Shown here one piece after another: positions 761 to 16,992 of a stretch of DNA of 22,340 nucleotides. This DNA comes from a virus. Position numbers and translations under genes: made by a program. Location of the stretch: IMG/VR virus record IMGVR_UViG_3300021406_000048, positions 1 through 22,340 of that record. One strand, given 5' to 3'. The stretch's first letter is position 1. Every line of letters starts with the position of its first letter. The notes below the pieces were generated by a model. That model saw nothing but the letters and a program-made list of their open reading frames with translations, was not told where the DNA came from and made no database searches.

Positions 761-2109
761 CATGGACGCTAACGCCGAAACAGGAACAAGCCAACGAACT
801 GCTAGCCTCGAAAGCGCAGCATATTTTACTTGCTGGTGGGTCACGTTCGACGAAAACGGTGCTATTGGTGCGCGCTATGTGCGTGAGAGCCCTGAAAGCT
901 CCTGGGTCGAGACACGCCGCTCTACGCTTCCGGTTCGGCCATATCAAGCAATCGATCATTCACGATACGTTCCCAGCGGTGATGAAGAACTTCTTTCCGG
1001 ACGTTCACTACGATCTAAATCGCTCGGACTGGTTCGCACAATTCAAAGGTGGCTCTCAGATCTGGTTCGGCGGCCTCGATGACAAGGAACGCACCGAAAA
1101 GATCTTGGGATCCGAGTACGCCACTATCTTACTCAATGAGTGCAGCCAGATCCCTTACGCCAGCCGCAATGTCGCCGTGACACGCTTAGCGCAGAATGTC
1201 ATCGATACGACTACGGGTAAGCCCTTGGCGCTCAAAATGTACTATGACGAGAATCCTCCCTCCAAAGCGCACTGGACCTATACGGTCTTTCGCTTAAAGA
1301 AGGATCCTGATACCAAGCAGTATCTGCCTGATCCAGATAACTACGGATTCATGCAGTTGAATCCTAAGGACAATCCCCACCTTCCGCCAGATTACATCAA
1401 GACGCTCGAGGCGCTGCCGGCGCGGCTGCGTAAGCGCTTCTTAGAAGGTGAGTTTTCCGATATCGCTCCTAATGCGCTCTTTCTCGATGAGAACCTGGAG
1501 AAGTGGCGCCACTTGGATGGTGACTTGCCCGACATGCTTAGGGTCGTGGTGGCTGTCGATCCGTCAGGAGCCGAGGACACGGACAACACGGACAATGATG
1601 CGATTGGCATCAGCGTTTGCGGCTTAGGCGTCGATGGGATTGGTTATGTGCTGCATGACCTTACCTGTAAGGTTGGTCCCGCTGCATGGGGTAAGGTGGC
1701 AGTTCAGGCGTACTTGCGCGAGAAGGCCGACCGAATCGTGGGAGAGATAAACTTCGGCGGTGCCATGGTGGGATTTGTGATCAAGACGGCTGCTACCGAA
1801 CTTAGCACCCGCGTGCCGTTTAGGTCACTCACTGCCAGCCGCGGCAAGGTTGTGCGAGCTGAGCCGATATCAGCGATGTTCGAGACAGGTAAGTGCAGGC
1901 TTGTCGGCTTTCACCGAGATCTAGAGGACGAGCTGGCGGGATTTACCACAAATGGCTACATGGGCGAGAATTCGCCTAACCGCGCGGATGCTATGATCTG
2001 GGCCATGTCTGATCTATTCCCGGAACTTATGAAGCCTGCCGAGGAGAAACAGCAGGTGATCATGCCGGTTGTGCGCAGAGGCGGCCCGCAGGCGTGGATG
2101 CATCGATGA
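757..2109 (+). CDS. terL: Terminase large subunit (DNA-packaging ATPase/nuclease)
   Basis: This is the motor of the packaging complex. It binds the portal, hydrolyses ATP to pump DNA into the prohead and cuts the concatemer. The 450-residue protein has an N-terminal ATPase domain with a Walker A-like loop GGSRSTKT (residues 27-34) and a Walker B strand with catalytic glutamate TILLNE (123-128, E128). The C-terminal RNase H-like nuclease domain shows AVDPSG with D268, followed by an acid-rich loop, and NRADAMIWAM with D411; these are the expected metal-binding acids. The Walker A loop has Thr where most families have Gly before the Lys. Length is somewhat below P22 gp2 (499 aa). The start ATG 757 overlaps the previous stop, and the end overlaps the portal gene. 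Confidence 0.95.
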   Translation: MTWTLTPKQEQANELLASKAQHILLAGGSRSTKTVLLVRAMCVRALKAPGSRHAALRFRFGHIKQSIIHDTFPAVMKNFFPDVHYDLNRSDWFAQFKGGSQIWFGGLDDKERTEKILGSEYATILLNECSQIPYASRNVAVTRLAQNVIDTTTGKPLALKMYYDENPPSKAHWTYTVFRLKKDPDTKQYLPDPDNYGFMQLNPKDNPHLPPDYIKTLEALPARLRKRFLEGEFSDIAPNALFLDENLEKWRHLDGDLPDMLRVVVAVDPSGAEDTDNTDNDAIGISVCGLGVDGIGYVLHDLTCKVGPAAWGKVAVQAYLREKADRIVGEINFGGAMVGFVIKTAATELSTRVPFRSLTASRGKVVRAEPISAMFETGKCRLVGFHRDLEDELAGFTTNGYMGENSPNRADAMIWAMSDLFPELMKPAEEKQQVIMPVVRRGGPQAWMHR

Positions 2110-4247
2110 ACGACCGCGATCCAGACCTCGATGCCATAGCCGATGAGGACGTGTTCGAGGAAGCCCGCGACCGCATGTCCATGTCGCTCGAGGCCGATTC
2201 GCACAATCGGGAAGCGGCGAAGGATGCGATGCTCTTTCGCGAGGGCGAGAATCACTGGGATAGCGACTATGTCACATCAGCGAGCCAGGAGAATCCGGAA
2301 CTCGTCATCAACCTCACCGACACCCTTGTTGGAAGGGTTGTTAACAGTATTGCCGATCTCGAAACACGTGGTAAATGTCATCCTATCGCCGATGGCGCTG
2401 ACACTGAGCGTGCAGACGTTATCAACGGCCTTGGACGCCATGTGGAATACCGATCAGACGCCCCTGTCGCCTACGACAACGCCACAGACAACGCCGTCTC
2501 AGGAGGCTGGGGATGGTTTAGGCTCTTAGCTGAGTGGGCCTCGCAGAACAGCTTTGATAAAGAAATCCGCATAGCGCCGATCTTCGATTGCTTCACGGTC
2601 TACCCTGATCCTGGCTCGATGATGCCCACCGCGCAGGACATGCGCTGGTGCTTGATCGCACTCATGCAAAAGCGCAATGAATTTAAGCGTTTAAATCCAG
2701 GTGTTGACCTAGTACCCTGGTCTGATGTGGGATCAGCGCGCATGGCGGCTGACTGGGAGACCAAAGAGGAAATCAGGGTTGCGCAGTACTTTCGGATTCT
2801 GGATAAGCAGGAGAAGCTCTATCAGCTAAAACTGCCCGATGGGACAAAATTCGGGGTGTTCAAATCTGATCTGCCAACTGATGCGCAACTGCGGCGCATT
2901 CAAGCTACCATTATTGGCGAGCGGGAAGGGACTAAATCTAAAGTTCAGCTGTTCCACCTGAATGGCACTAAGGTTACGCAGCGAGAAACCATTCCGGGCA
3001 CATTCATTCCAGTCATACGCGTACAGGGAAATGCCCGCATGATCGACGGCAAGGTCTATCGGCGCGGCATGGTGCAGACCATGATGGACCCGCAACGCAT
3101 GGTCGATTATGGCGAGACCTCCAAGATTCTGCGTTTAGGCCTGGCCACAAAGTCCAAGTACATCGCCGCGGAAGGACAGCTAGACGGGCATCCTGAGTGG
3201 ACTGAATCCAATCGCGAACCCATCCCAACGCTTACATATAAGCCCGTGACAATCGAGACCGGGCAGGGAGCGACGCTCCTACCGCCCCCGCAGCCGATAC
3301 CGCCGGCGCAAGTGGAGGCTGGGTTTACCGAGTTCGTGCAGGGTATGCGCTCGAACTTACTCGCGATCGCCGGCATGCCAAATGAGCCTGGACAGGATCA
3401 ATCGCAAGGGCAAACTGTTTCAGGACGCGCTTTGCAGCGCCGCGACAAGCTCTCGGATCAGTCGCACAGCCAGTACTACAAGAACAAAAAGTTAGCCGTA
3501 GCTCACGCCTGGAGGATCATGCTCGACTGGTTCCCGCCGTACTATAGCGAGGAGCGCATGCAGCGGATCATCGGTGGGGATGGCAAGCCTCAGATGATCG
3601 AGTTGAATAAGGAAATCCAAGATGCAAATGGGGTTACATCGGTCAAGAATGATCTCTCGATTGGTCGCTTTGATGTTGTCATGGAAGCAGGCCCGAGCTA
3701 CGAGACTATGCGCGAACAGGGGGCGGAAGATCTGATTGAATTGGTCACTTCTCCTGGCCCCATGGGCGAGATTGTGGCCAAGAACGCTGCGGATCTAGTC
3801 TTCAGGTCTATGGATGGCATGTACACTGAAGAGATTGCCGATCGCATAGCCGCTCAGAATCCTGAGGGCTTAAAGAAGATCATGGAGAACCTGCCGAAAG
3901 AGGCTCGCGCCGTGGTTCAGTCGCTCTCCGCGCAGAACCAGCAGCTTAAACAAGCGCTTCAAGAGGCGCAGCTTGAGAACAAGTACGGCATGGCCAAGGC
4001 GCACCTTGCCGCTACGGTCAAGGCGCACGATGTCGAGGAATCGAACAAGACCAAGCGCCAAGACACTGAAACTCGCGCCGACACGGCGATTAAGGTCGAG
4101 GCAATGCGCGGGCATGTCACACTGGCGAAGGAAGAGATTGCGGTGGGTGGTGAACTCTTGAACACCCATGTGGAGGCTGCACACAATAAAGAAGCGGCTG
4201 AGATAGCGTTGAAGTCGGCTGAAAAAGCAGAAAATGGAGCAGCGTAA
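2106..4247 (+). CDS. Portal protein, P22 family
   Basis: The portal forms the dodecameric ring at the capsid vertex through which DNA enters and leaves and onto which the tail is built. The product is about 713 aa, close to P22 gp1 (725 aa). It has the typical P22-portal start region (EGENHWDSDYV, NLTDTLVGRVVNSIADLETR) and a long helical C-terminus from about residue 600 (SAQNQQLKQALQEAQLENKY and onward), like the helical barrel of P22 portal. I place the start at ATG 2106 because it overlaps the terminase stop as ATGA. An in-frame GTG at 2094 would add four residues. The stop is followed directly by the next ATG at 4248, with GGAG at 4236-4239. Confidence 0.93.
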   Translation: MNDRDPDLDAIADEDVFEEARDRMSMSLEADSHNREAAKDAMLFREGENHWDSDYVTSASQENPELVINLTDTLVGRVVNSIADLETRGKCHPIADGADTERADVINGLGRHVEYRSDAPVAYDNATDNAVSGGWGWFRLLAEWASQNSFDKEIRIAPIFDCFTVYPDPGSMMPTAQDMRWCLIALMQKRNEFKRLNPGVDLVPWSDVGSARMAADWETKEEIRVAQYFRILDKQEKLYQLKLPDGTKFGVFKSDLPTDAQLRRIQATIIGEREGTKSKVQLFHLNGTKVTQRETIPGTFIPVIRVQGNARMIDGKVYRRGMVQTMMDPQRMVDYGETSKILRLGLATKSKYIAAEGQLDGHPEWTESNREPIPTLTYKPVTIETGQGATLLPPPQPIPPAQVEAGFTEFVQGMRSNLLAIAGMPNEPGQDQSQGQTVSGRALQRRDKLSDQSHSQYYKNKKLAVAHAWRIMLDWFPPYYSEERMQRIIGGDGKPQMIELNKEIQDANGVTSVKNDLSIGRFDVVMEAGPSYETMREQGAEDLIELVTSPGPMGEIVAKNAADLVFRSMDGMYTEEIADRIAAQNPEGLKKIMENLPKEARAVVQSLSAQNQQLKQALQEAQLENKYGMAKAHLAATVKAHDVEESNKTKRQDTETRADTAIKVEAMRGHVTLAKEEIAVGGELLNTHVEAAHNKEAAEIALKSAEKAENGAA

Positions 4248-4250
4248 ATG
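4233..4250 (+). repeat. 18-bp direct repeat, copy 1 (gene junction)
   Basis: AATGGAGCAGCGTAAATG spans the end of the portal gene (…NGAA, stop), a Shine-Dalgarno GGAG and the ATG of the next gene. An identical copy lies at 4557-4574, exactly 324 bases downstream, which is the length of the gene between them. Flanking bases on both sides differ, so the identity is confined to the junction. Confidence 0.9.
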
Positions 4251-4571
4251 GATGAACCAACCTTCAGGCTATGCGATATCGGGGGTCGCTCTGTATACCG
4301 GCAGTTGTGCCAAGTTCGCGAGGACGGCAGGACATGGCTAGGCGCACATTGGACTGACTATGATTGGCAAGGGAAGAAGGTCGGAGAGCGCACGACCTGG
4401 AACGGTTACTTCACGTCCTCGCGGGGCATAGACGATCCAGCGATACGCGCGCGATTGCCTTTATGGCAACGACTTGCCTATGGGCTTGGCCTATACGGTC
4501 ACAAAGCACATGACGATGATGGCAGCAAAGTTGCCTCGGCTATCATAAAAAATATTAATGGAGCAGCGTAA
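4248..4571 (+). CDS. Hypothetical protein between portal and scaffold (107 aa)
   Basis: A complete gene abutting the portal stop, with its own Shine-Dalgarno GGAG at 4236-4239. The product begins MDEPTFRLCDIGGRSVYRQL and is rich in aromatic and charged residues (TWLGAHWTDYDWQGKKVGER, TTWNGYFTSSRG). The middle looks beta-rich, followed by a helical segment LPLWQRLAYGLGLYGHK. It has no clear transmembrane segment or known catalytic motif. The gene is flanked by an exact 18-bp direct repeat at its two junctions, which suggests it entered as a cassette or by a duplication of the junction. P22 has no gene here between portal and scaffold. The function is not recognised. Confidence 0.75.
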   Translation: MDEPTFRLCDIGGRSVYRQLCQVREDGRTWLGAHWTDYDWQGKKVGERTTWNGYFTSSRGIDDPAIRARLPLWQRLAYGLGLYGHKAHDDDGSKVASAIIKNINGAA

Positions 4572-4574
4572 ATG
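4557..4574 (+). repeat. 18-bp direct repeat, copy 2 (gene junction)
   Basis: Identical to 4233-4250: end of the 107-aa gene (…NGAA, stop), GGAG and the scaffold ATG at 4572. The core GGAGCAGCG plus three bases plus start codon occurs a third time at 5728-5742 in front of the coat gene, where the start-codon position holds ATC. Confidence 0.9.
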
Positions 4575-5672
4575 ACGGTAGTCGTTGAAAACGGTCGGGA
4601 TCAGATCGAAGCCTACACCACAGGTAAAGGGGTGTTTCCCGTGCCACCTGAAGTGAAGGCCGATAACGATGCTCAGGCTGCCAAAAGCGAACCTGAGAAG
4701 AAAGTCGCGGACAATCCCGCTGTTCCTCCCAAGGTTGAAACGCCTCCCGATGATGCTGGCGATGACGAGGAAGGCGAGGACGGCCTTACCCCACGCCAGA
4801 AGCGCGAATTCACCAAGGCGATGCAGGCGACGATCGGCAAGAAGCACCGCATGCAGAAGGAAGCCGAGGAGTTCGCAGCCGAACAGTACAACAACGCAAA
4901 GCTAGCCGATGCGCGCGCGGCGAAGCTAGAAGCCGATCTTGCAGCTTTACGTGAGCAGCTAAAGCCTGCGAAGATTGAGGAGACTAAGAAACCCGCTAGA
5001 GCAGACTTCAAAGCAGGCGAGGAAGGCGATCAGGCCTACTGGGATGCGCTGGTTGACTATCGGGCGGATTTAAAGATCTCGGCATTGAAAGCCGATCAGG
5101 CCAAAGCCGATCAGGAGCGCTTCATTCAGGAGGAAACAGCGCACGCGCAGGCTAAGATGGATCGCGCCTTTGAACAAGGACCGGATGACTTCAAGGAAGT
5201 CTATGAATCAGCCGATATGGTGCTGCCGAACTATGTTTTGGAGTCCATCAAGAACTCAGATTTGATGGCAGAACTAGTTTATGACCTGGGCGTCCATCCA
5301 GAGAAAGCAGAGAAGATCCGCGCGATGACCGATGGTTGTCCGCCAGGCTCCGCAAGGTATGCGCGAGCTGCCCAGCGTCAATTAGTTGAAATCGGTAAAA
5401 TTGAGAGTACACTCAAACCATTCGCCAAAGAAACTAAGGCGGAAGTCAAGACAGAAGACGCCCCAGAGGCGAGTCAGAAAACGGCGAAAGCCGAGCCAGA
5501 AACGGAGTCAGCTCCGAGTAAGCCCCGCGTTAATGCGCCCATCATCAAGCCATTGAACGGCGGCAGTGCTTCCCAAGTCGAGAAAGACGAAGCTGATCTT
5601 ACGGGATCGCAAGTCTTGACGAAGTGGCAGAAGAAGCACGGCGTTGTTCTGACGGCAAGAAAAAGGCACTAG
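4572..5672 (+). CDS. Capsid scaffolding protein (probable)
   Basis: The 366-residue protein sits between portal and coat, where P22 places scaffold gp8. It has the composition of a scaffold: an acidic, Pro/Lys/Glu-rich disordered N-terminus (VETPPDDAGDDEEGEDG around residue 60), then long helical coiled-coil segments (FAAEQYNNAKLADARAAKLE; QAKADQERFIQEETAHAQAK), and a strongly basic C-terminus ending KWQKKHGVVLTARKRH. In P22 the basic C-terminal helices bind coat subunits; a similar role here is inference. Such proteins direct shell assembly and leave before or during packaging. The start ATG 4572 has GGAG at 4560-4563. Sequence similarity to P22 gp8 itself is not evident, so the call rests on position and architecture. 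Confidence 0.8.
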   Translation: MTVVVENGRDQIEAYTTGKGVFPVPPEVKADNDAQAAKSEPEKKVADNPAVPPKVETPPDDAGDDEEGEDGLTPRQKREFTKAMQATIGKKHRMQKEAEEFAAEQYNNAKLADARAAKLEADLAALREQLKPAKIEETKKPARADFKAGEEGDQAYWDALVDYRADLKISALKADQAKADQERFIQEETAHAQAKMDRAFEQGPDDFKEVYESADMVLPNYVLESIKNSDLMAELVYDLGVHPEKAEKIRAMTDGCPPGSARYARAAQRQLVEIGKIESTLKPFAKETKAEVKTEDAPEASQKTAKAEPETESAPSKPRVNAPIIKPLNGGSASQVEKDEADLTGSQVLTKWQKKHGVVLTARKRH

Positions 5673-5678
5673 CGGCGG

Positions 5679-5720
5679 GAAACTCTGAAGTTTCTATCGC
5701 GCTCTTTTTGACTTGAGCGC
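5679..5720 (+). promoter_or_regulatory. Two tandem small hairpins in the scaffold-coat gap
   Basis: In the 67-base gap before the coat gene I see two inverted repeats: GAAACT-ctga-AGTTTC (5679-5694) and GCGCTC-10 bases-GAGCGC (5699-5720). The second ends five bases before the AAGGAG ribosome binding site. They could protect or process the mRNA or tune the high coat expression. Neither is followed by a convincing U-tract on the 3' side, so a terminator is unlikely. Confidence 0.3.
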
Positions 5721-5725
5721 TGCTT

Positions 5726-5742
5726 AAGGAGCAGCGAACATC
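5726..5742 (+). promoter_or_regulatory. Coat gene translation initiation region with ATC in the start position
   Basis: AAGGAG at 5726-5731 is a strong Shine-Dalgarno, eight bases from ATC 5740. The stretch GGAGCAGCG + AAC + ATC has the same geometry as GGAGCAGCG + TAA + ATG at 4236-4250 and 4560-4574. No ATG, GTG or TTG lies at a suitable distance; the first in-frame ATG (5767) is 35 bases past the Shine-Dalgarno. Confidence 0.65.
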
Positions 5743-7122
5743 GCAAATACGGCTCTGACGATCTCGATGATCACGAATCGGGCATTGCCCGTTCTTGCCA
5801 ATCTCTGCACCCTCACTGACAAGTACAACCGTCAGTACGACAAGGAATTTGGGCAAAAGGGCAAGAAAATCGGTGCCACGTGTAACGTGCGTGTCCCGCC
5901 TCGGTATGTCGGCACCTTCGGTCCCGCGCTCAACGTCGAGCCCTCGACCGAAACGTACGTGCCGGTACCGATCCTGTACCAGTTTCACGTCGACATTCAG
6001 TTCAACACGATCAACATGTTGCTGGACATCGATGAATTCGAGGAACGCTTCATTCACCCCGCCTGTCTCGCGGTGGGCAACCGGGTAGATTCTGATGGCG
6101 CCTATTTTGGCTTCCAGAACACCGCTAACCGACTAGGTACGCCTGGAACCACTCCGACTGCCTATAAGTCATTCGGTGACTCTCGCGCCATGCTGGTGTC
6201 GGAAGGCATGCCCAAGGGCATGGTGCCGACCTGCGTGTTGCACCCGTTCGCCAATTCCTCGATGGCCGATGCCTTGAAGGGGCTTTTTAACCCCCAGGCG
6301 CGCATCGATGAGATTTACGAGACCGGCATGGTCGCCAAGAAGACGGCCGGCGCTGATTGGTTTGAAGATCCCAATATCGCGAACTACAGCACCGGATCAC
6401 TCTTGGGAGCGCCAGTTCTCGCCGGTATCACCAATGCGGTGGGTGGCTCAGCGATTCTTACCGCCGGCTGGGCGCAGTTTGGCGTCATCAACCTGTCAGG
6501 CTTGACTGCCAACTCTGCGGGCTGCTACGTCGGGGACACGATCCAGATTGCTGGTCTATTCCCGGTCAATCCGCAGTCACGTGGTCGGTATAATAGCCCC
6601 TCTGGCTTGAAGCAATTCGTGGTCCTCCCTCCGGGCGGGTATGCGCAGATGACCGGTGTTGCTACCCCCGGTAGCCCGCAGTTCGCACCAGCGACACTCG
6701 CCAACGGAACCTTCACTAATACGCCGGGACTCGCGACCACGGGCCTTTATACCGCTTCCGCTGGTGGACTTCTGACCGTGACGATCGCAGAGTGCATCAT
6801 CACCAGTGGCCAGTTCCAGAACTGCGTGGCAACTGCGGCTTTCACCGGCACCCCTGCGGTGACCTTGAATGCCGGCGCGGCTCTCGCGACCAACTCCACC
6901 GAGAACCTCTACTTCCATCGCGATGCTTTCGCACTCGGTGTGGTCGATCTGCCGCTGCCCCGCAATGCCTCAGCCTCCAGGGCATACGATGAGGACTTAG
7001 GTCTCTCGATTCGCATCGTGGAGGATTACACGATCAACAATGACGCGGAACCGACCAGGTTGGATATAGCCTACGGGTTTGCGTCGCTGTATCGCTCACT
7101 GGCCGTTCGCGTTTCAGGCTAG
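5740..7122 (+). CDS. Major capsid (coat) protein, P22 gp5 family
   Basis: The main shell subunit of the head. From ATC 5740 it has 460 residues (P22 gp5 has 430). The N-terminus reads ANTALTISMITNRALPVLAN after the initiator, matching the MANT-L-TI--IT start common in this family. Other family-like parts are the helical region LLDIDEFEERFIHPACLAVG, a beta-rich insertion-domain region with VGDTIQIAGLFPVNPQS, and the C-terminal segment NLYFHRDAFALGVVDLPLP followed by SIRIVEDYTINNDAEPTRLD. The ATC start is supported by the Shine-Dalgarno at 5726-5731 and by loss of nine conserved N-terminal codons if ATG 5767 is used. If the ATC is a sequence error, the gene simply starts with ATG. A 10-base gap separates it from the HNH gene. 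Confidence 0.9.
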   Translation: MANTALTISMITNRALPVLANLCTLTDKYNRQYDKEFGQKGKKIGATCNVRVPPRYVGTFGPALNVEPSTETYVPVPILYQFHVDIQFNTINMLLDIDEFEERFIHPACLAVGNRVDSDGAYFGFQNTANRLGTPGTTPTAYKSFGDSRAMLVSEGMPKGMVPTCVLHPFANSSMADALKGLFNPQARIDEIYETGMVAKKTAGADWFEDPNIANYSTGSLLGAPVLAGITNAVGGSAILTAGWAQFGVINLSGLTANSAGCYVGDTIQIAGLFPVNPQSRGRYNSPSGLKQFVVLPPGGYAQMTGVATPGSPQFAPATLANGTFTNTPGLATTGLYTASAGGLLTVTIAECIITSGQFQNCVATAAFTGTPAVTLNAGAALATNSTENLYFHRDAFALGVVDLPLPRNASASRAYDEDLGLSIRIVEDYTINNDAEPTRLDIAYGFASLYRSLAVRVSG

Positions 7123-7132
7123 AATCAAAGCA

Positions 7133-7618
7133 ATGGGACGCCGCAGCACTCCAGCAAACATTCGATTCGCAAGGCAATACAAGATTGCTGCGAATGGCTG
7201 CTGGGTGTGGGCTTCTAGCCTAGATCCGGACGGATACGGGTATTTCAAAGGTGAGATGCTCGGCGTGAAGCACAAGAAGGCGCATCGCTTCTCTTGGTCG
7301 TTTCACAATGAGTCTCAGATTCCCGCAGGAATGTCAGTACTTCACAGCTGCGATAATGCTGCATGTGTGAATCCGGATCATCTTCGCGTAGGCACGCAGG
7401 CAGATAACATTGCCGATAGAGAGTCACGCGGTAGAGCCGCAGATCAGCGTGGAGAGAAAGCTCATCAAGCAAAGCTTACGGAAACTCAAGTATTTGAGAT
7501 TAAGGCTTTATGCAAAACTATGACCGACAGAGAATTAGCGGCTAAGTTTAATGTCGCTAGGACGACTATCAGCAGCATCAAACATGGCCATACTTGGGCC
7601 CACTTGGAGTTAAATTAA
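7133..7618 (+). CDS. HNH homing endonuclease (HNH_3 type) with C-terminal DNA-binding helix-turn-helix
   Basis: A free-standing endonuclease gene of the kind that spreads among phages by cutting alleles lacking it. The 161-residue product has CWVW (C23), HRFSW (H51) and the core VLHSCDNAACVNPDHLRVG with H71, C73, D74, N75, C78, N80 and H83, as expected for an HNH_3 zinc-binding beta-beta-alpha fold. Residues about 112-157 (TETQVFEIKALCK, DRELAAKFNVARTTISSIK) form a helix-turn-helix. The start ATG 7133 is chosen over an upstream in-frame codon at 7079 that overlaps the coat gene; no good Shine-Dalgarno precedes it, which may mean low expression. Its last codons contain the GGAG (7606-7609) that serves the next gene. 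Confidence 0.9.
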   Translation: MGRRSTPANIRFARQYKIAANGCWVWASSLDPDGYGYFKGEMLGVKHKKAHRFSWSFHNESQIPAGMSVLHSCDNAACVNPDHLRVGTQADNIADRESRGRAADQRGEKAHQAKLTETQVFEIKALCKTMTDRELAAKFNVARTTISSIKHGHTWAHLELN

Positions 7619-8070
7619 TGGCAAATCCAGCAACGACCAATGTTACTGGGAGTAATCCTGGCCCAGATGTCGCCACTTCCCCCGATACGGTGCAGATGCC
7701 CACAGGAAACTTGTGGAAGGTCGGGCAGTTTCAGATCCAGCTCACTCCCGCAGCTTTGGGGGCTGGTCCGCTAATTACGGAACAGACATTCATTGGAACC
7801 GCTGCAACTGCAAGCGCCACCCAGTATTTCCCTACCATTGGGCTGCTCGCAACTGATGTGGTAATTGTGACAAAAGCCGGTGCACAAACCGCCAATGTCG
7901 GAATACTTGATTCCAGAGTGTCAGCAGCTGATACATTGGCAATTAAATTTCTGAATACTGCTGGTACTCCTACTCCGGCCGCTGGCACAGCCGCAGCTCC
8001 TTACATCGTCTCTGTGTTCCGCGTGCAGCCGAACTGGACGCCTGTGAACTCACCGCAGCTTGACTGGTAA
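7618..8070 (+). CDS. Small beta-rich virion-type protein (150 aa)
   Basis: The start ATG 7618 overlaps the HNH stop (TAATG) and has GGAG at 7606-7609 with eight bases of spacing; an in-frame TTG at 7594 is less likely. The protein is Ala/Thr/Gly-rich with alternating hydrophobic strands (GLLATDVVIVTKAG, NVGILDSRVSAADTLAIKFL) and no signal peptide. Its C-terminal half resembles the next gene product (shared pattern RVS--(N/D)TLA----NTAG and a closing RP/RV motif), so the two look like tandem paralogues. Its position after coat suggests a decoration, head-completion or tail component. The specific family is not recognised. Confidence 0.75.
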   Translation: MANPATTNVTGSNPGPDVATSPDTVQMPTGNLWKVGQFQIQLTPAALGAGPLITEQTFIGTAATASATQYFPTIGLLATDVVIVTKAGAQTANVGILDSRVSAADTLAIKFLNTAGTPTPAAGTAAAPYIVSVFRVQPNWTPVNSPQLDW

Positions 8071-8082
8071 GGGGAAAGGTAA

Positions 8083-8451
8083 ATGCCTGGTTCCAATCGA
8101 CCGGCTTTGGGCAATGAAATCTATGACATGGTCATCGCGCCGACTTCCCAGGCAGGTGCTGTGGCAGGCACGCTTGTCTGGTCAGCGGCCACGGTGGCTG
8201 CTAACACCACGATTGAGTTGACCGCTACGGTCCCTGGGCTTCTGGTGGGGGATCTGGTTGATATCTATCTGATCTCAGGGGCACTTTTGACTGGAATGCA
8301 GATTTGCAATGTGCGTGTTTCTTTGCCCAATACGTTGGCTGTCACCTGGGTTAATACCACGGCAGGTGTTCTCACTGTACCAACCGCTACGTGGTCGATG
8401 AACATGACCAGACCTGAGAATCCTTCCGCCTTGCCGCCGAATGCGATCTAA
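8083..8451 (+). CDS. Small beta-rich virion-type protein (122 aa), paralogue of preceding gene
   Basis: The start ATG 8083 is preceded by a purine-rich ribosome binding stretch (AAGGGGAAAGG, about 8069-8079). The product is mostly beta: TTIELTATVPGLLVGDLVDI, ICNVRVSLPNTLAVTWVNTT, ending in NMTRPENPSALPPNAI. This pattern (a strand pair, then VPGL-VGD-V, then RVS-NTLAVTW-NTTAG) recurs in small structural proteins of many phages and matches the preceding gene product at lower identity. The stop TAA 8449-8451 directly abuts the next ATG. A virion role is inferred from context. Confidence 0.75.
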   Translation: MPGSNRPALGNEIYDMVIAPTSQAGAVAGTLVWSAATVAANTTIELTATVPGLLVGDLVDIYLISGALLTGMQICNVRVSLPNTLAVTWVNTTAGVLTVPTATWSMNMTRPENPSALPPNAI

Positions 8452-15731: not shown

Positions 15732-16171
15732 ACGAACTCACCGCGACGTTGGATCAGATAAAACGTTTGCAGGAAGCAGCCTCAAAACTTCCACAGGCCA
15801 CGCTTTTCACTGAGCATTTCTTCATTCCAGGGGTATATGTACGTTGGCTTTTCAGGCCAGCTGACACTCTCATCATCGGGAAGGTCCACAAAAAAGAGCA
15901 CATGTATGTGATCTGCTCAGGTGAGATAACAGTTATTGGCGACGGCACTAAAGAGCGTATTATAGGGCCACGCGTAATCGTCTCCCGTCCGGGAACGAAG
16001 CGAGCCGTCTACTCTCACACTGATACGGTTTGCTTAACGATCCATAGAACTGATGAAACTGATCTCGACAAAATCGAGGCAGAACTCATAGAACCGGATG
16101 ACACCGCTATGTATGACGCGCGTAACGAACTAAAGAGGCTTCAGGATGAAAGTCTTGCTGCACTGCCATAA
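15728..16171 (+). CDS. Cupin-fold phage protein (147 aa)
   Basis: The GTG start at 15728 overlaps the previous stop as GTGA. After a short helix the protein has a cupin-like barrel: LIIGKVHKKEHMYVICSGEI (about residues 49-68), TKERIIGPRVIVSRPGTKRA and YSHTDTVCLTIHRTDETDLD. The two histidines in GKVHKKEH and the later HTDT histidine could bind a metal. I recognise this arrangement (GK-H--EH----SGEI, SRPGTKR--Y-H-DTV--TIH-TDETD) as a recurring phage protein in structural clusters, whose substrate I do not know. The C-terminal helix ELKRLQDESLAALP ends at TAA 16169-16171, inside the ATAA junction with the next gene. Confidence 0.8.
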   Translation: MNELTATLDQIKRLQEAASKLPQATLFTEHFFIPGVYVRWLFRPADTLIIGKVHKKEHMYVICSGEITVIGDGTKERIIGPRVIVSRPGTKRAVYSHTDTVCLTIHRTDETDLDKIEAELIEPDDTAMYDARNELKRLQDESLAALP

Positions 16172-16992
16172 GTTGGGTTGCCGTAGGTGTCGCTGGAGCT
16201 AGCCTAGTAGGCGGACTGATCAGTTCCGGCGCATCTTCAGAAGCCTCACGCGAGCAAGTCGCGGCAGAGCGCGAAGCCCTTGCTCAGCAGAAGAGCATGT
16301 TCAATCAGATCCAGAGCAATGAATATCCATTCATTCAAGCCGGTGGCGCGGCACAGGGACAGCTAAATTACTTACTCGGCACCGGCAATCAGTTCAATCC
16401 TGACGGCACACCGAACTCCAGTCCCGCGGGTGGCTTCGGTTCGCTTAACACGCCGTTTAACATGGATACGTTCAAGTCCCTCACGCCGCAGTACAACTTC
16501 AATCTGCAGCAGGGCGCACAAGGAACACTGAATCAAGACTCCAATGCGCAGGGTGCCGAGTCTGGCGCGGCGCTGAAAGACTTGATGTCGTTCAATTCTA
16601 ATTTTGCAAATAATTCTTTCAACAGTGCATTCCAAAATTATCAGTCTCAACAAAATAATATTTTTAACAGACTCAATTCGATTGCAACATTAGGCTCGAA
16701 CGCTGGAAGTAATTCGGCTACCGGGGCTAGCCAATTTGCCGGTGCGATTGGTGGCACGCTAGGCAGCATAGGAGCCTCGCAGGCAGCCGGTACTATCGGG
16801 AGCGCTAATGCCATCACTGGTGGGATCGGAGGCGCTGCTGGGGCTTTCTACGGCCAGAATGCGCTAAATCAGATTTTGAATCAGGGCTCGACCGTCAAGT
16901 ACAACCCATCGCAGTATTCGCCTGGAGCAATGAACCCAGCGCAGCAGCCGGGTGATCCGACCAATCCTTACTACGATCCGAACGCAGGCTGA
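16168..16992 (+). CDS. Probable ejection (injection) protein, P22 gp7 position; likely AUA start
   Basis: The frame is open from ATA 16168, whose last two bases are the first two bases of the previous TAA stop (ATAA), copying the ATGA overlaps used elsewhere. Starting there gives 274 residues opening with a glycine-zipper-like hydrophobic segment SWVAVGVAGASLVGGLISSG, then an Ala/Glu/Gln helix to QQKSMFNQIQ and PFIQAGGAAQGQLNYLLGTG. That opening is typical of phage internal virion proteins. The first ATG in frame (16297) would delete it and has no Shine-Dalgarno. The C-terminus is low-complexity (GGIGGAAGAFYGQNALNQ). Together with the next two virion genes it matches the P22 gp7-gp20-gp16 order and sizes; P22 gp7 has 229 residues. 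The role in DNA ejection is inferred. Confidence 0.75.
   Translation: MSWVAVGVAGASLVGGLISSGASSEASREQVAAEREALAQQKSMFNQIQSNEYPFIQAGGAAQGQLNYLLGTGNQFNPDGTPNSSPAGGFGSLNTPFNMDTFKSLTPQYNFNLQQGAQGTLNQDSNAQGAESGAALKDLMSFNSNFANNSFNSAFQNYQSQQNNIFNRLNSIATLGSNAGSNSATGASQFAGAIGGTLGSIGASQAAGTIGSANAITGGIGGAAGAFYGQNALNQILNQGSTVKYNPSQYSPGAMNPAQQPGDPTNPYYDPNAG

Follow-up and report, generated by a model that had tools for sequence, protein, structure and literature searches.

A probable AUC start at the major capsid gene of an uncultured P22-type phage, and avoidance of AUG at coat gene starts across its clade

Where does the major capsid gene of this uncultured soil phage begin, and what does a start outside AUG, GUG, and UUG at such a gene mean? 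The window (i.e., the whole 22,340-base stretch of DNA analysed here) carries its genes in the P22-type order of terminase, portal, a 107-aa insert, scaffold, and coat (Table 1). The coat protein matches PF11651 P22_CoatProtein (1.1e-17, profile search) and, over residues 2–460, phrog_283 major head protein (1.9e-48). Read directly, the coat frame opens at an in-frame TAA and continues GGA GCA GCG AAC ATC (5740) GCA AAT ACG GCT CTG ACG ATC TCG ATG (5767), which translates around the start as (I)ANTALTISM and holds no ATG, GTG, or TTG before 5767. The sequence-only reading, which had followed the frame upstream of ATG 5767 to ATC 5740, had found ANTALTIS encoded there, and had noted a strong AAGGAG eight bases before the ATC, is thus confirmed on both points. 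The in-frame stop lies five codons upstream of the ATC, and the Shine-Dalgarno (SD) sequence is strong, as would be looked for in a gene with a non-canonical start.

Table 1 Features of the coat gene region and neighbouring genes in the window
Feature	Position	Strand	Remarks
P22-like portal gene	2106..4247	+	PF16510 7.6e-117
Scaffold gene	4572..5672	+	ATG start; ends ARKRH*; phrog_8865 head scaffolding protein 2.2e-10
Coat leader	5673..5739	+	67 nt from scaffold stop to coat start; predicted hairpins GGAAACT..AGTTTCT and GCGCTC..GAGCGC
Predicted hairpin CGCTGCT-TAAGG-AGCAGCG	5719..5737	+	Loop holds part of the SD; folding prediction
In-frame TAA	5725..5727	+	Bars starts further upstream
Shine-Dalgarno AAGGAG	5726..5731	+	8 nt before ATC; duplex with 16S tail −8.4 kcal/mol
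Major capsid (P22-type coat) gene	5740..7122	+	From ATC 5740 (probable start); 460 codons; protein (M)ANTALTISMITNRALPVLA...
ATC start codon (probable)	5740..5742	+	Between TAA 5725 and ATG 5767, no other near-cognate start stands at SD distance; relatives have GTG/TTG/ATC/ATT/ATG as the homologous codon
First in-frame ATG (Met10)	5767..5769	+	Not conserved; rejected as coat start
HNH endonuclease gene, just 3' of coat gene	7133..7618	+	PF13392 HNH_3 8.7e-9
Next virion-module gene (MANPATTN...)	7618..8070	+	ATG start; served as control

Comparison with relatives fixed the codon at which the gene begins. Among 73 close relatives, coding conservation set in sharply at coat codon 2: amino-acid entropy in the coat frame fell from 3.4 bits at codon −1 to 0.43 at codon 2 and was 0 at codons 6–9, third positions were free, in-frame stops were frequent a few codons upstream of codon 1, and the second base of codon 1 was T in all 73. 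The conserved N-terminus is ANxxLTIS. Across the 22 non-redundant genomes with AUC or AUU at codon 1, codons 6, 7, 9, 11, 12, and 13 were invariant in amino acid and were each written with two to six synonymous codons. In 21 of these 22 genomes, the stretch from the upstream stop to coat codon 1 is free of canonical starts (L040 has a GTG at codon −3 that lies right against the SD and was discounted as a start), and in L078, with an ATT coat start, the first canonical start downstream comes only at codon 74. Since conservation begins at codon 2 and no canonical start is available between the upstream stop and codon 1, AUC or AUU is read as the coat start in these genomes, and for the window we consider it very probable, on this comparative evidence, that translation of the major capsid gene truly begins at ATC 5740, as the sequence-only reading had proposed. 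Translation from the internal ATG 5767 would instead yield a coat protein nine residues shorter. This ATG is the first in frame, and Met10 is kept in 56 of the 73 closest relatives; however, 17 of the 73 have Q, T, L, W, or D at residue 10, the sister clades have Y or Q there, codons 2–9 are amino-acid-constrained in the AUC/AUU genomes too, and AAGGAG lies 35 nt from 5767, all of which makes an internal start extremely improbable.

The codon used at this position turned over extensively among relatives. Coat loci were drawn from IMG/VR, GTDB contigs, and phage records, and the clade defined by the window and L102 comprised 153 coat genes after collapse at 97% identity, which start with GTG (61), TTG (47), ATG (23), ATC (12), and ATT (10; L304–306 were counted as ATG, one codon past an apparent ATC, and L293 as GTG). 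About 85% of clade coat genes thus lack AUG, with AUC/AUU at about 14% and AUG at about 15%. For the close relatives, whose codon the sequence-only reading had singled out as a check, the counts were TTG 30, GTG 26, ATC 8, ATT 6, and ATG 3 (n = 73). Codon changes on well-supported branches numbered at least 10 for ATC and at least 8 for ATT (in an earlier tree, a 76-row clade had an SH-aLRT of 99). These counts bear on whether the ATC arose by misassembly, by a sequencing mistake, or by a mutation private to this genome, with ATG (or GTG/TTG) as the true codon and AUC unused. Such an error would fit a window that is a single metagenome-derived virus record, the lack of any further exact match to the start region in IMG/VR (0 matches, a search from which the record itself may be left out), and another odd start in the window, ATA 16168, at a position that is ATG in relatives. 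Against it, a further 21 non-redundant genomes, recovered from separate samples, have ATC or ATT as the homologous codon, and the tree places the origins of these codons at many points; other AUC/AUU starts share the upstream motif, and ATG is itself rare at the coat codon (3 of 73 close relatives). With 22 non-redundant genomes and at least 18 changes on the tree, sequencing error cannot explain the AUC/AUU starts, and we regard an error or private mutation in the window as very unlikely.

The second odd start belongs to a virion-module gene (16168–16992) that was called from ATG 16297 and is open upstream. Its conserved N-terminus (SWVAVGVAGASLVGG...) begins after ATA 16168–16170, which overlaps the upstream stop TAA 16169–16171 and corresponds to ATG in relatives L176, L178, and L391; the ATA is an AUA start, a recent mutation, or an error.

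The departure from AUG is a property of the coat gene. Coat genes of the outgroup start with ATG almost without exception (Xanthomonas phage PBR31; Vibrio, Shewanella, Rhodoferax, and other phages; Paraburkholderia contigs). In the clade's own genomes, the next gene is ATG in 139 of 142 (versus coat, Fisher 2.7e-53) and in 61 of 61 within the close clade, the portal gene is ATG in 14 of 15, and the scaffold gene is mostly ATG (95 of 126, a rough count because the start caller chose among ATG, GTG, and TTG by SD alone). Since the next gene in the same genomes keeps ATG so consistently, avoidance is specific to the coat gene; as judged from the start codons compared, AUG is shown to be avoided at the coat gene and not at its neighbours. 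The same observation bears on the suggestion that the host or phage initiates unusually (e.g., a lenient IF3 or a special initiator tRNA), so that AUC would not be weak at all. The window has at least two virion genes with starts outside AUG/GUG/UUG (5740 ATC and 16168 ATA), which would fit this suggestion, but neighbouring genes keep ATG, and neither a tRNA gene nor an IF3 gene was found in the 15 phage records searched for each. Adaptation to altered host initiation, which the sequence-only reading had entertained, is accordingly set aside as very improbable.

Several observations lie beside these counts. The control gene (7618–8070) has a very strong SD and an ATG start and is perhaps a decoration protein; neither it nor the likewise conserved gene 8083–8451 had a PHROG match, and the former had no Pfam match either. 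Outside the clade, the coat gene of another P22-type subfamily (L395, 2544–3779; PF11651, 6.7e-15) has an ATT start after TAAGGAGCAGCGAAC, and by this example AUU coat starts may reach beyond the clade. Two loci, L386 (2463–3155) and L428 (ORF at the contig end), encode related virion-like proteins (..GSAVAGSEAA..) after TAAGGAGCAGCG, with apparent starts ATT and ATC, respectively.

The string preceding the coat start had been described from the window as the same at 4236–4250, at 4560–4574, and at the coat gene. Its recurrence is indeed above chance: GGAGCAGCGNNNATS occurs at 4236, 4560, and 5728, i.e., three copies versus 0.01 expected from shuffles, and the three occurrences of GGAGCAGCGNNNAT[GC] are likewise far above chance. 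However, the two ATG copies are not independent, as both are part of an exact 18-bp direct repeat (AATGGAGCAGCGTAAATG, 4233–4250 and 4557–4574) that flanks gene 4248–4571; as ends of one direct repeat, they amount to one piece of evidence and not two. The flanked gene encodes 107 aa of no family and is an inserted gene between portal and scaffold; a homologue sought in relatives gave 0 matches. The candidate that TAAGGAGCAGCG is a signature of AUC/AUU starts only was rejected, as it precedes ATG at 35 of 66 distinct sites among the matches listed, and, where an ORF of at least 60 aa follows, ATG comes next in 29 of 42 among the matches listed across the collection. Alone, TAAGGAGCAGCG is an ordinary strong ribosome-binding site (RBS), mostly before ATG, and it is also found before the ATT coat gene of L395.

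The leaders of the clade's coat genes set them apart as well. In the clade, opening the RBS was predicted to cost 11.0 kcal/mol at the coat gene versus 7.0 kcal/mol at the next gene (p 8e-16). When upstream leaders were dinucleotide-shuffled with the SD and coding sequence fixed (40 shuffles each), the cost was 10.99 kcal/mol for the clade's native coat leaders versus 8.62 kcal/mol for shuffled ones (p 1.6e-11), and 39 of the 153 exceeded all 40 of their shuffles. Outgroup coat leaders showed no structure excess over shuffles (p 0.63), and the next gene's leader showed none either, being slightly less structured than its shuffles. The excess depended on the start codon: it was +2.8 for ATG, +2.9 for GTG, and +2.7 for TTG versus −0.2 for ATC/ATT (p 4e-4). 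The window belongs to the open-leader class, as do most AUC/AUU leaders; its RBS costs about 10.3 kcal/mol to unfold versus 12.0 for its own shuffles, i.e., it has no excess of SD-sequestering structure. Over phylogenetically independent pairs, the trade-off between codon and leader ran in the same direction and was not significant (about 6.4 versus 1.3 pairs, median p 0.125). SD strength as a compensating variable did not differ between codon classes (p 0.33). Such a trade-off is the outcome expected under selection for low initiation.

The structures differ in form between subclades. In the sister clades, a CUCCU further upstream pairs with the SD AGGAG, and the outer pairs of this stem covary (80 of 112 pairs versus 66.2 ± 3.2 permuted, with a maximum of 78 in 5000 permutations). 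In the close clade, many members have a longer stem that closes just before the start codon (P1 stem, −15.0 versus −13.1 ± 0.5 in a permutation test), and a three-stem model (P1-P2-P3) fits many, though not all, members. An SD buried in clade-specific, covarying hairpins, within a leader that in the close clade directly follows the scaffold stop, would suit an on/off translational operator, opened by a phage or host factor or by the ribosome leaving the scaffold gene, with the weak codon limiting leak. Yet neither a binding motif nor a ligand was identified, an Rfam search of the coat leader returned no RNA family, leader architectures vary between subclades, and the window and most AUC/AUU leaders are without the structure. 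We consider such an operator conceivable but somewhat unlikely.

Homing endonucleases offer a possible origin for the AUC and AUU starts. An HNH gene lies directly before the coat gene in 7 of 21 AUC/AUU loci versus none of 141 others (p 2e-7). All seven (L022, L057, L078, L208, L225, L239, and L246) start their coat gene with AUC or AUU, and the HNH stop falls 10–18 nt before the coat start in those where it was located (i.e., all but L225). In L057, the HNH gene opens with the same leader and TTG as the coat gene of its relative L065, which suggests that the cassette entered immediately behind the native start codon and made it its own; insertion directly after a native TTG or GTG was found in L022, L057, and L078. 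A motif, [AG]GCGNNN, precedes the codon at 13 of 22 AUC/AUU starts, both with and without an HNH gene, versus 0 of 145 others (p 6e-14), and 9 of the 22 AUC/AUU leaders are without [AG]GCG. In the window, no HNH gene stands directly upstream of the coat start, its HNH gene being downstream. The core of the window's start region, GCTGCTTAAGGAGCAGCG, is identical over 18 nt to the stop/SD region that ends the L246 HNH gene, and the cassette 3' end (TAAGGAGCAGCGNNNAT[CT]) is present. Since the 3' end of an HNH cassette is often found at AUC/AUU starts, the window's AUC may be a cassette scar from which the HNH gene has since gone.

Other inserts were seen in and around the coat gene. The HNH gene of the window sits between the coat gene and the next virion gene, where relatives have only a short gap. 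Intron-like inserts follow about coat codon 32 in L058, L059, L060, L062, and L063, several with a nuclease-like ORF (L059 gave an Rfam group I intron match that stayed below threshold, 20 bits, E 0.014), and L073 has a short ORF-less insert after coat codon 54. In L084 (3001–4516, phage record ctn9Y15), the coat gene is annotated in two pieces with a small ORF between them, which may be another insert. A self-splicing intron at the start codon of L022, L057, and L078 was considered and rejected: the last base of the exon is not U, the insert neither ends in G nor begins with GUGYG, and the HNH gene is an ordinary ORF with its own stop 13–15 nt before AT[CT].

This traffic raises the question of whether non-AUG starts are simply a side effect of homing endonucleases or of relaxed selection, with HNH genes bringing AT[CT], leader turnover bringing GTG and TTG, and expression being restored otherwise. 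The restriction of directly preceding HNH genes to AUC/AUU loci, their insertion at the coat start codon, and the occurrence of HNH genes and intron-like inserts within or near the coat gene all speak for it. However, a single step separates GTG and TTG from ATG, yet across dozens of changes ATG remains rare while the adjacent genes are ATG, and canonical-start leaders have extra RBS sequestration that outgroup leaders do not. The rarity of ATG and the extra sequestration point to selection for low initiation, and we find the side-effect explanation unlikely.

We favour an account that joins the ATC 5740 start, lowered coat initiation throughout the clade, interchangeable brakes, and a probable origin from HNH cassettes, and we consider it probable as a whole. 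By analogy with infC, pcnB, and sigR, fMet-tRNA would initiate at AUC with a third-base mismatch, aided by AAGGAG and resisted by IF3. Most relatives place GUG or UUG behind an SD-hiding leader, and a minority place AUC or AUU behind an open leader and a strong SD. While AUG avoidance and leader structure were shown statistically, we infer that the sequestering leader and the AUC/AUU codon act as interchangeable brakes; for the regulatory brake imagined by the sequence-only reading, clade-wide AUG avoidance and sequestered leaders thus lend weight to the idea, and the braking itself would be their presumed function. The purpose might be to keep coat synthesis from outrunning the scaffold, which is encoded just upstream, so that the coat does not misassemble; alternatively, coat translation might await a signal or a scaffold-leaving ribosome that opens the leader. 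HNH homing-endonuclease cassettes probably insert at the coat start codon, seize the native leader and start, and supply a new SD and AT[CT], and the window would carry the 3' end of such a cassette without the HNH gene. That an uncultured podovirus-type clade holds coat initiation low by either an SD-burying hairpin or AUC/AUU, and that AUC/AUU spreads by homing-endonuclease cassettes, is a proposal that we make tentatively. Use of AUG by 23 of about 150 clade members counts against a brake. A brake on the most abundant virion protein would also call for a reason, because selection for AUG is generally strongest in genes with high expression (PMC5622118). Net coat output may still be high despite low initiation, as the finding is silent on protein abundance and mRNA strength.

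Non-canonical starts that act as translational brakes are known; the coat gene would add a case at a major capsid protein, across a clade, with codon turnover and a link to homing endonucleases. The closest parallels are infC (encoding IF3; ATT in E. coli and ATC in Streptomyces) and pcnB (AUU), which likewise have a near-cognate AU(U/C) start behind an SD, the start serving to keep initiation low (PMC9410913, PMC5472188). For infC fidelity mutants, gains in output in the range of 3- to 15-fold are cited (PMC5472188). However, infC and pcnB are regulatory or housekeeping genes, whereas the coat is a major virion structural protein whose codon switches among AUC, AUU, GUG, and UUG between relatives. 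Streptomyces sigR, with a GTC start and IF3 repression, resembles the coat gene in having a group-conserved non-canonical start behind a strong SD, and its start determines how much sigR product is made relative to that of an adjacent gene of the operon (PMC5472188); it differs in being a regulatory sigma factor, in its other codon, and in an N-terminus mapped by experiment. The clade shares with the P22-type family (PF11651, phrog_283) the coat gene, the terminase-portal-scaffold-coat order, and the family's N-terminus, but nearly all cultured relatives examined use AUG, in contrast to the non-AUG starts of this uncultured clade. Among phage homing endonucleases, HNH_3 genes are known next to essential genes that include capsid and terminase (PMC10448857, PMC2988022). 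The cassette here differs in sitting exactly after the coat start codon, taking the leader and start, and leaving a new SD and AUC/AUU, and no description of such a takeover was found in the papers searched.

Belinky et al. (2017) reported purifying selection for AUG that is strongest in highly expressed genes, start codon/SD compensation, and switches to AUU in 1 of 61,358 ancestral AUG starts, and discussed the proposal that GUG/UUG starts combined with masked SDs serve regulation (PMC5622118). The coat clade shows the opposite pattern, with AUG avoided and AUU recurrent, and runs counter to the rule that retention of AUG is strictest in highly expressed genes. As AUC/AUU starts are so rare, gene callers limited to ATG, GTG, and TTG miss them, which implies wrong capsid N-termini in many metagenomic phage annotations. 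Capsid translation in these phages would become a natural test bed for IF3-dependent start discrimination, for phage SD-sequestering leaders, and for the rewiring of invaded genes by homing endonucleases. Overall, clade-wide avoidance of AUG at one gene suggests that synthesis of the main capsid protein is deliberately restrained.
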